DNA of 42,780 nucleotides from a virus: positions 1 to 42,780 of IMG/VR virus record IMGVR_UViG_3300044712_001170. One strand, written 5' to 3'. The position numbers and the translations under genes are program-made. Under the pieces are notes generated by a model. The model searched no databases. It worked only from the letters and a program-made list of their open reading frames with translations, and was not told where the DNA came from. Below are positions 31,113 through 42,184 of this stretch, one piece after another (position 1 is the stretch's first letter; each line of letters begins with the position of its first letter).

Positions 31113-32156
31113 ATGAGAAAGCCTTTTTGGCGAAAGAACCGCAAGTGCTGGTACGTCAAAGACGAGACGGGAAAAGACATCCGACTTGGGCCGGATAAAG
31201 AAGAGGCAATGAGGCTCTGGCATTCGCTGTTTGAGCCTCGAAATCGTGCCGATGATCCATCAATAGGGTTTGTTGCCGAACGATTCCTTTCCGAGCACGC
31301 CAGCGGCTCGCAGCGAGTCTTTGCGGATGCCAAACGAATCCTTCAGGCTCTAATTGATCGCTTTGATTCAAATAGCTTGGTGAGCAGCCTTACGCCTGGG
31401 AAGATAACCGCCTGGATCAAAGAACCGAACATTCAAACCAAAGCAGGGAAACGGGCTTGGTCCTTGTACCGGCAGAGAGATGTCGGGCGGATGGTACGTG
31501 CTATTTTCCAGTGGGCGGAAGACTCTGAACTGATACGAAAGAATCCACTAAAAAAGCTTCGACTCGAAACGCCGGAACCCCGGAATGCAGTTGTGCCGCC
31601 TGGAGTGCATCGACAACTCGTCGAGGCTTGCTTGGCTTCGCGGCAGTCGAGGTCATTCGCTCTATATTTGATCGCCAGCCACTGCGGGGCGAGACCTCAG
31701 CAGATTCGAGAAGTCACAGCGGCCAACGTATCGCATGATTTTCGGACCGTTGTATTCCCAAGGCACAAGAGCCGCAGGAAGACCGGCAAGCCGCTCGTTG
31801 TTTTCGCTTCGCCTTGCCTGCAAACAATCCTTCGGATCCTCGTTGCGGCTCGTCCGGTCGGCGAGTTGTTCCGAAATGATCGAGGTGAAGCATGGAAAAA
31901 AGACACCGTATCACATCGCATTCGACGGCTTCGTGAGTCACTCGGGCTGGATCCTAAGATCATTGCTTACGCTTACCGGCATACGTTCGCGACTGACGCG
32001 CTACGCGCTGGAGTCGATCTGGCCACGGTTGCCGTCTTGTTGGGGCACAACTCGACGGAGATGGTGAGCCGAGTGTATGGACATCTTGCCGAACATCCGG
32101 ACCACATTGCAAAAGCAGCTGTCAAGGTTGCCGCGAAGCGTATCGGCGGCACGTAG
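31113..32156 (+). CDS. int: Phage integrase (tyrosine recombinase)
   Basis: 347 residues. The N-terminus (RKPFWRKNRKCWYVKD) is an arm-binding domain of the kind found in phage integrases. The catalytic domain shows R194 (GARP), K219 (PRHK), Y286-x-x-R289 (YAYRH, where a His is usual), H312 (LGHNS) and nucleophile Y322 (VYGHL). The His-to-Tyr change in the HxxR box is tolerated in many phage integrases. AGAGAGGTG precedes the ATG. It lies beside attP in the canonical order and should catalyse insertion at tRNA-Pro. Confidence 0.93.
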   Translation: MRKPFWRKNRKCWYVKDETGKDIRLGPDKEEAMRLWHSLFEPRNRADDPSIGFVAERFLSEHASGSQRVFADAKRILQALIDRFDSNSLVSSLTPGKITAWIKEPNIQTKAGKRAWSLYRQRDVGRMVRAIFQWAEDSELIRKNPLKKLRLETPEPRNAVVPPGVHRQLVEACLASRQSRSFALYLIASHCGARPQQIREVTAANVSHDFRTVVFPRHKSRRKTGKPLVVFASPCLQTILRILVAARPVGELFRNDRGEAWKKDTVSHRIRRLRESLGLDPKIIAYAYRHTFATDALRAGVDLATVAVLLGHNSTEMVSRVYGHLAEHPDHIAKAAVKVAAKRIGGT

Positions 32157-41258: not shown

Positions 41259-41309
41259 ACGCTTTGGATCAATGGGCCATCGAGGTAAAGCATGATTAAA
41301 CCAAACGAC
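41257..41309 (+). repeat. 53-bp leader repeat, copy 1
   Basis: From the stop of the HhH gene to codon 6 of the GNAT-fold gene, this segment matches 41907-41959 at about 38 of 53 positions without gaps. It contains the ribosome site (GAGGTAAAG here, GGAGATAAAA there) and the start ATG. A shared initiation cassette produces the similar protein starts MIKPND and MTTPND. Confidence 0.55.
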
Positions 41310-41900
41310 ATTATCGATGGCTCCATTGCATCCAATTGTTCCCCTGCTCGCGGTGATGATGTACGGGACGCATACCCTCTTTTCCAAGAGGGAAGAGGCG
41401 GTTCAACTCCGACCTCACCGCTTTCGTTTCGCATTGAACAGTTACCATTCGCGGAGGCAAAACGATTGAACAAACAATGGCATAGCCGATTGCCGCGAAT
41501 GGGAACGGGTTTCGTTGAGTCGATGCCGTTCCTCTGTTTTGGTGCAATGTTTGAAATGCGATGGTACGCCGTTGCGATATGGTCGAACCCAGTCGCACGC
41601 AATTTGCCGCAAGACACATGGTTGGAGCTCAGGCGGTTGGCAATCGCACCAGATGCCCCAAAGAACACAGCCAGCAGAATGCTTGGCGTGATGGCTCGCC
41701 TGATTCGCAAAGCGAAACCGCAGGTTGAGCGATTGGTGAGTTACCACGATACGGAAGTCCATAGCGGTGGCATCTATCGTGCCGCAGGTTGGACAGCCAC
41801 AACAGTCAACAAAGACGGGAACTGGACGCGAACCAAAAGACCGCGACCCAGGGCCCAGAGCGAAGCCGCAAAACAGCGGTGGGAATTACCTCTGGTTTAG
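41292..41900 (+). CDS. Mom/XF1762-like GNAT-fold protein
   Basis: 202 residues from ATG 41292, with GAGGTAAAG upstream. Residues 45-168 match the phage GNAT-fold family that includes Mu Mom and XF1762-like proteins: LNKQWHSRLPRMGTGF, YAVAIWSNPVAR, LELRRLAIAPDAPKNTASRM and GGIYRAAGWTA. Mom modifies adenine to resist restriction; the function here is unproven. The first 44 residues do not look like a domain and overlap a tRNA-like sequence (41350-41422). No good alternative start was found after it. Confidence 0.75.
   Translation: MIKPNDIIDGSIASNCSPARGDDVRDAYPLFQEGRGGSTPTSPLSFRIEQLPFAEAKRLNKQWHSRLPRMGTGFVESMPFLCFGAMFEMRWYAVAIWSNPVARNLPQDTWLELRRLAIAPDAPKNTASRMLGVMARLIRKAKPQVERLVSYHDTEVHSGGIYRAAGWTATTVNKDGNWTRTKRPRPRAQSEAAKQRWELPLV
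41350..41422 (+). tRNA. tRNA-Gly(UCC)-like sequence inside a coding region
   Basis: Seventy-three bases fold as a tRNA: acceptor GCGGTGA with TCACCGC (7 perfect pairs), discriminator T, D-arm ATGT-ACGGGAC-GCAT, anticodon stem CCCTC/GAGGG, 4-base variable loop and T-arm GGCGG-TTCAACT-CCGACC with one bulged A. The anticodon loop TTTTCCAA has 8 bases and contains UCC; GCGG pairs and U73 are glycine identity elements. The two one-base excesses suggest a +1 frameshift-type tRNA, a tRNA mimic or a decayed gene. It lies fully within codons 20-44 of the GNAT-fold gene, same strand. Confidence 0.6.
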
Positions 41901-41906
41901 TCAGGG

Positions 41907-41959
41907 GAACGCTACGGATAACCGAGTCGCGGAGATAAAACATGACAACACCAAACGAC
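41907..41959 (+). repeat. 53-bp leader repeat, copy 2
   Basis: Matches 41257-41309 at about 72%, again covering the ribosome site and start codon, between two gene units. The duplication suggests that the small genes here were added as units with their own translation signals. Confidence 0.55.
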
Positions 41960-42184
41960 GCTGGCCGCGACTTCGGTTCATCCGATTGTTCGTCGGCTCC
42001 TCTTCTCTCGCAGTGCAGTCGGCGGGTGACGATGAAGCCTTGCGTCAAGTGCGGAGAGCATACGCCCGTCGTGATGAATCAAGGTCGAAAGTATTGGATT
42101 CGGTGTTTCATGTGTCAGCATGACGGACCAAAAGCAAGAACAATGTTAGCCGCAATTGAACTATGGGAGCATGAAAATGAGTAA
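41942..42184 (+). CDS. Small zinc protein, Lar-like
   Basis: 80 residues from ATG 41942; ATG 42032 (50 residues) is an alternative that begins just before the domain. CVKCGEHTPVVMN and RCFMCQHDGPKA, followed by AAIELWEHEN, match restriction-alleviation (Lar-like) zinc proteins of phages, which carry CxxC...CxxCxxxG and a final W-N. Lar modulates type I restriction. The family is short, so confidence is moderate. Confidence 0.6.
   Translation: MTTPNDAGRDFGSSDCSSAPLLSQCSRRVTMKPCVKCGEHTPVVMNQGRKYWIRCFMCQHDGPKARTMLAAIELWEHENE

Follow-up and report, generated by a model that had tools for sequence, protein, structure and literature searches.

The stretch of viral DNA analysed here (the window) comprises 42,780 nucleotides (nt), positions 1–42,780 of IMG/VR virus record IMGVR_UViG_3300044712_001170. 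At 41350–41422 it carries an element with the form of a tRNA-Gly, which occupies codons 20–44 of a mom-like gene on the same strand. The element is real and far beyond chance, and related elements occur across phages, conserved, overlapping coding sequence and tightly linked to mom in several positions and orientations. We think it likely that this is a true tRNA-Gly gene whose bases double as 5′ coding sequence of mom, and that it yields a glycyl-tRNA barred from translation and used by Mom. An initial annotation, made from the letters alone, had described a tRNA-Gly-like structure at this place; the bases are as it described, and a covariance model (R2) from which the window element had been held out matches them. 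The parts of the element are listed below.

41350–41421, + strand: tRNA-Gly(UCC)-like element, positions 1–72, in frame inside mom (held-out R2 match and covariation)
41350–41356, + strand: acceptor stem, 5′ strand (two-sided changes in 5 of 7 pairs, 32 relatives)
41359–41373, + strand: D-arm, stem 41359–41362/41370–41373 (two-sided changes in 4 of 4 pairs)
41375–41392, + strand: anticodon arm, loop 41380–41387 (8 nt), UCC at 41383–41385 (two-sided changes in 4 of 5 pairs)
41397–41414, + strand: T-arm with bulged A at 41412 (pairs flanking the bulge co-vary in relatives; A kept in 70 of 79)
41415–41422, + strand: acceptor 3′ strand (41415–41421) and discriminator U73 (41422) (from the sequence)

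All seven acceptor pairs form (GCGGTGA/TCACCGC), followed by a D-arm (ATGT-ACGGGAC-GCAT), an anticodon arm (CCCTC-TTTTCCAA-GAGGG) with UCC within its 8-nt loop, a variable region (AAGA) and a T-arm with one bulged A (GGCGG-TTCAACT-CCG(A)CC). A cloverleaf with a 7-base-pair (bp) acceptor and D, anticodon and T arms is present, the bulged A being non-standard for tRNA geometry. The glycine identity elements U73, G1–C72, C35 and C36 are all in place. Competence in translation calls for an anticodon loop of 7 nt that includes U33 and for a 5-bp T-stem free of bulges; the window element has an 8-nt loop and a bulged T-stem. U73 is followed by TTT rather than an encoded CCA, so that CCA addition would be needed; most relatives encode CCA, which is also absent in L001, L003 and L054.

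Detection of the element

Standard tools do not recognize the element. ARAGORN called no tRNA genes; Rfam gave no match at its gathering score, the best match below the cut-off being tRNA-Sec at 22.9 bits; BLASTN of the region against phages returned no match; and a stringent DNA pattern that fixed long arms had no matches. The isolated strand has a minimum free energy z-score of −3.3 relative to shuffles, and its minimum-energy fold is not a cloverleaf; energy alone therefore proves little, and it is comparison with relatives that is informative. Model R1, whose training set includes the window element, scores it at 74.4 bits, a value that is not independent. The 28 elements used to train model R2 exclude that of the window and all those nested at the 5′ end of mom. 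This model matches 41350–41425 with 59.7 bits (E-value 8.8e-15), with the rest of the 42.8 kb at noise level.

Covariation among relatives

A protein search of IMG/VR found a relative, L001, that is 92% identical, with the T-stem changed from GGCGG/CCGACC to GGTGG/CCAACC. The first mom gene of L002 also carries the element, and its acceptor differs in sequence and pairs equally well (GCGCCGA/TCGGCGC). A DNA pattern consisting of TTCCAAG, a gap and a bulged T-arm retrieved 60 contigs, nearly all with a Mom open reading frame (ORF) on the same strand. Across 32 elements nested 5′ in mom, aligned without gaps, 98.7% of cells pair, against 42–48% when the partners are slid; two-sided changes occur in 14 of 21 pairs, with 109 two-sided cells versus 31 in shuffles. 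Among 79 model hits at loci chosen by their Mom protein, 21 of 21 pairs co-vary (413 two-sided cells versus 105 shuffled) in an alignment that was fitted to the model and hence leans towards it. Homologues that kept the peptide without the stem pairing would have counted against the initial annotation; the arms instead co-vary strongly, in its favour. The one-base excess that it saw in the T-stem is present and can be refined: the T-stem of L010 (GAGGG/CCCATC) and the varied flanking pairs in the 79-hit alignment place the extra A as a bulge inside the stem, where it is found in 70 of the 79 hits at these protein-selected loci.

Upstream of the second mom gene of L002, which has no nested element, a stretch of about 119 nt (2736–2854) matches tRNA ends around a long, unexplained middle; it reaches 27.2 bits (E-value 0.0018) against Rfam tRNA-Sec.

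Linkage of the element to mom

A second pattern, specifying the bulged T-arm, the acceptor and U73-CCA and leaving the anticodon free, matched viral contigs in at least 120 places; searched against 257 Gb of prokaryote contigs, it matched 28 stretches. Among the 141 distinct perfect-acceptor elements listed, 73 lie within a Mom ORF towards its 5′ end and 36 towards its 3′ end; 16 lie downstream of mom, 2 upstream and 3 further off, and 11 have no Mom match on the DNA examined. Five of these 11 are at the edge of that DNA (L056, L075, L150, L180 and L207), L058 has a broken mom, and for L214 Mom was found in a later scan; L123 carries an element without a Mom match. Three alphaproteobacterial tRNA-Gly genes (L192, 2335–2409; L195, 5029–5099; L212, 3380–3450) have the same T-stem bulge and no Mom nearby, and perhaps serve another non-translational use.

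The converse test started from 80 loci picked purely on protein similarity to Mom (query A2). A model hit lies −120 to +250 nt from the matched mom end in 70 of them, with a median gap of 4.5 nt, a proportion that is not a family-wide rate, because the loci behind 10 of the 11 seed proteins had been selected for their tRNA. The hit is on the same strand as mom in 64 of the 70 and on the opposite strand in 6; four further loci have a hit at another place within the locus. One locus that was negative with R1, L276, has an R2 match beside mom. When whole records were scanned, the element was the sole tRNA-like element in 18 of 20 phage records that carry it; one of the remaining two has a second weak match, and the other, Psychrobacter phage Y8A, a tandem pair beside mom. 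For 28 records without an R1 hit beside mom, 26 had no match at E ≤ 0.001 at all; the other two were L276 and Listeria phage LP-083-2, whose matches cluster at 34–38 kb of the record, at a distance from mom.

Cultured phages with the element include Salinibacter B2_17, Psychrobacter Y8A, Arthrobacter BarretLemon, Microbacterium Appa and Pseudanabaena Pan3. The two tandem elements of Y8A (L218, 2156–2296) are degenerate and lie right after mom; the paper on this phage reports no tRNA genes (PMC10434257). Standard tRNA finders can thus miss a class of phage tRNAs.

In a tree of 137 Mom cores, forms with 5′-nested, 3′-nested, downstream, opposite-strand and no element interleave. The tree requires 37 changes, none of 200 shuffles being as low, and its starred branches force at least 4 changes for the 5′-nested form and at least 6 for the 3′-nested form, although this is a quick tree built on few columns with many forks open. 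Shifts of this kind in place and orientation are easier to reconcile with an RNA that acts in trans than with a cis-element.

Features kept and lost

Features of translation decay across the family, while the glycine identity elements mostly stay. G1–C72 is kept in 141/141 and C2–G71 in 138/141 of the listed elements, a conservation partly built in by the patterns; encoded CCA is found in 124/141, although the second pattern demanded it for much of the set. U73 is kept in 75/79 of a model-selected set, and in 48 diverse members C35 is kept in 46 and C36 in 44. These positions agree with the bacterial glycine identity set reviewed in PMC9976931. U33, by comparison, is kept in 26 of the same 48 members and lost in 22. 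The T-loop word TTC is gone in many downstream elements and the D-arm in 65-nt forms, and G18G19 is kept as GG in most of the in-gene class. The 8-base anticodon loop of the initial annotation is present and typical of that class but is not universal, being 7 nt in L005, L014 and L024; loop sizes from an automatic finder, which favours long stems, were not used.

Two codes in one stretch

Where the element is nested in the 5′ part of mom, its length is divisible by three in 72 of 73 cases, against 9 of 18 downstream (Fisher p 6e-7), and the reading frame is the same in 70 of 73. This indicates that mom is read through the tRNA. An AlphaFold model gives a mean predicted local distance difference test (pLDDT) score of 43–52 over model residues 11–30, most of the tRNA-coded stretch, with the GNAT domain beginning after it. 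This low confidence is in keeping with the initial annotation, which judged the encoded residues unlike a domain. The peptide is nevertheless partly kept in homologues without the tRNA, for example as IRIVHPLFQ...APSSPLQLH in L016, so that the tRNA-coded segment is also real coding sequence. The clade L016–L021 has PLFQ...SPLQL and no cloverleaf, a pattern that looks like loss of the tRNA with survival of the peptide. An overlapping code of this kind, in which a protein gene contains a whole tRNA in its frame and selection acts on both functions, is unusual.

The mom-like gene and its surroundings

41282–41285, + strand: Shine-Dalgarno-like GAGG, 6 nt ahead of the mom-like ATG (from the sequence)
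41292–41900, + strand: mom-like ORF, 202 amino acids; Mom/GNAT domain from residue ~46, residues 20–44 being the translated tRNA (Pfam, PHROG and fold match)
41292–41349, + strand: leader, codons 1–19, ahead of the tRNA (resembles the leader of the next gene, 41942)

The protein matches Pfam Mom (PF25680) with an E-value of 1.9e-15 and 57.5 bits against a cut-off of 27.1, and also phrog_1384. A fold search returned Mom of phage Mu (8bv8) as the best match, with Z 16.9 over 150 residues of a GNAT fold. The leaders at 41275–41352 and 41925–42002 are alike (alignment score 21, against a shuffled mean of −6 and maximum of 8.5), as if the mom-like gene and the next one shared a copied 5′ module. 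That next gene (41942–42184) has a weak match to the restriction alleviation protein Lar. In three cultured phages, a ParB-like or ParB/sulfiredoxin gene lies directly upstream of mom (L216, 966–1499; L217, 993–1514; L218, 891–1502), and this neighbour possibly belongs to the modification system.

A proposed role as glycine donor for Mom

The product of Mu Mom, N6-carbamoylmethyl-adenine, is a glycinamide, and the glycine-like group on adenine has been known for decades. The dedicated glycyl-tRNA is probably the glycine donor for this base, in a scheme where charging and donation would proceed as follows. The mom transcript would meet one of two fates: translation into a Mom whose N-terminal segment, encoded by the tRNA, is mostly disordered, or cutting by RNase P and processing at the 3′ end to release the tRNA. 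Host glycyl-tRNA synthetase (GlyRS) would then charge the element, as suggested by the retention of the identity elements that mark bacterial tRNAs for glycine. The bulge in its T-stem and its degenerate anticodon loop would bar it from EF-Tu and the ribosome. Finally, Mom, as a GNAT-fold transferase, would place the glycyl group on N6 of adenine in DNA. N6-glycyl-adenine is an isomer of N6-carbamoylmethyl-adenine (each is +57 Da, one glycine residue) and would become the known base by rearranging within the molecule. Were glycyl-tRNA to donate its glycine and such a rearrangement to follow, both the chemistry and the genetics would be accounted for. We favour, with slightly less assurance than for the reading given at the outset, a general picture in which Mom moves glycine from a phage-encoded, translation-excluded glycyl-tRNA onto DNA adenine and in which, in many phages, the tRNA is dual-coded in the frame of the enzyme, so that one transcript becomes either enzyme or co-substrate.

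A review names glycyl-CoA (coenzyme A) as a possible donor (PMC7824862). No report tying Mom to glycyl-tRNA was found in the open-access literature, and earlier work on the Mom donor may exist; if it does, the novelty would lie in a tRNA that phages carry and that is nested in mom. The donor hypothesis that arises from a dedicated glycyl-tRNA next to or within mom is specific and directly testable.

Several observations weigh against this proposal. Mu and 13 other cultured phages examined have Mom and no such match beside mom, which means that a private tRNA is dispensable for Mom, that of the host presumably serving instead. After Mu Mom, the nearest folds are ordinary CoA-dependent acetyltransferases; the best 50 fold matches listed include no aminoacyl-tRNA transferase, which has no bearing either way. 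Microbacterium Appa carries an ordinary-looking tRNA-Gly(CCC). L115 and L204 have lost the anticodon CC as well, which weakens the argument for charging in their case. L008, L015 and L016–L021 lie within the nested clade and lack a cloverleaf while partly keeping the peptide, and the seed set behind the 70 of 80 loci, drawn largely from tRNA-selected loci, belongs among these points too.

Alternative explanations

The element could instead be a cis-acting tRNA mimic, a structure in the mom mRNA on which Mom, GlyRS or RNase P acts to control expression, in the manner of the thrS operator. Its position at codons 20–44 is near the start codon, many relatives have their start only 4–13 nt ahead, and folding or cutting so close to a start must affect translation. 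Such control fails, however, where a related element sits in the 3′ end of mom, follows the gene or lies on the other strand; the leader position is not fixed, and a mimic has no need of encoded CCA and U73. We regard this explanation as unlikely, and a tRNA mimic that controls the gene, one of the functions first suggested, does not hold as a general function. Where the element is nested, it may in addition regulate in cis or be cut by RNase P; removal of the 5′ end of mom by that enzyme, another early suggestion, is a plausible side-effect there. It is less likely still, and indeed improbable, that an ordinary phage tRNA aiding the translation of glycine codons adjoins mom by history. Phages often carry tRNAs, and L024, with its 7-nt UCC loop, and the tRNA-Gly(CCC) of Appa look canonical; yet the element is usually the only tRNA-like element of its record and sits beside mom, U33, the T-stem and loop size are not kept, and forms without a D-arm exist.

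The 8-nt loop, which is typical of the in-gene class, had also prompted the idea of a tRNA for +1 frameshifting or suppression. Relatives differ in loop size, 22 of 48 diverse members have no U33 although C35 and C36 are retained, and the frame and the 72-nt length fit the need to keep mom open; this idea is abandoned as very improbable, though a programmed frameshift target was not searched for in detail. Lowest of all we place two further explanations. Tyrosine recombinase-like ORFs at 149–1180 and 31113–32156, recognized by eye from the translations, would suit an integration event that left behind a tRNA relic or an attachment site, but relics decay, whereas the cloverleaf is complete and shows strong compensatory change in many phages; the chance of this is slight in the extreme. 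Hardly any weight falls, equally, on selection for the N-terminal peptide PLFQ...PTSPLQL with incidental RNA pairing. Homologues without the tRNA do keep PLFQ...SPLQL and the coding constraint itself stands, but compensatory changes in the acceptor stem alter the encoded residues, and downstream and opposite-strand elements exist without such a peptide.

Comparison with known systems

The thrS tRNA-like operator and T-box leaders place a tRNA-type structure, or the sensing of a tRNA, in the mRNA of a related gene. The mom-linked element differs from both in being a full tRNA, often with encoded CCA, and in occurring 5′ and 3′ in mom, downstream of it and on the opposite strand. The sufD type of frameshift suppressor tRNA-Gly has an 8-nt anticodon loop; an enlarged loop in a tRNA-Gly is common to both, but here loop size is unconserved and U33 often lost. 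The Mom protein of phage Mu (PDB 8bv8, 'methylcarbamoylase mom') belongs to the same family and has the same fold, whereas no such RNA is found beside mom or elsewhere in the Mu genome.

A non-ribosomal use of tRNA-Gly is familiar from cell-wall synthesis, where FemX has a GNAT-type fold. In Staphylococcus aureus, weakened T-stem contacts are believed to let certain tRNA-Gly isoacceptors evade EF-Tu and supply FemXAB for building the cell wall (PMC4052509). Both these non-proteinogenic tRNAs and the phage element have T-stem features expected to weaken EF-Tu binding, and in both a non-ribosomal transferase uses, or is proposed to use, the glycine. The T-stem bulge thus suggests weak EF-Tu binding like that of the staphylococcal set, and the element may work like those tRNAs. 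It is not a member of the set: the staphylococcal genes are host genes with G18G19 replaced, whereas the element is encoded by a phage, either fused to mom or adjacent to it, has a bulged T-stem and retains G18G19 in most of the in-gene class. The acceptor in S. aureus is peptidoglycan, and the acceptor proposed here is DNA; if the proposal is true, aminoacyl-tRNA chemistry extends to DNA, beyond its acceptors among lipids, peptidoglycan and proteins.
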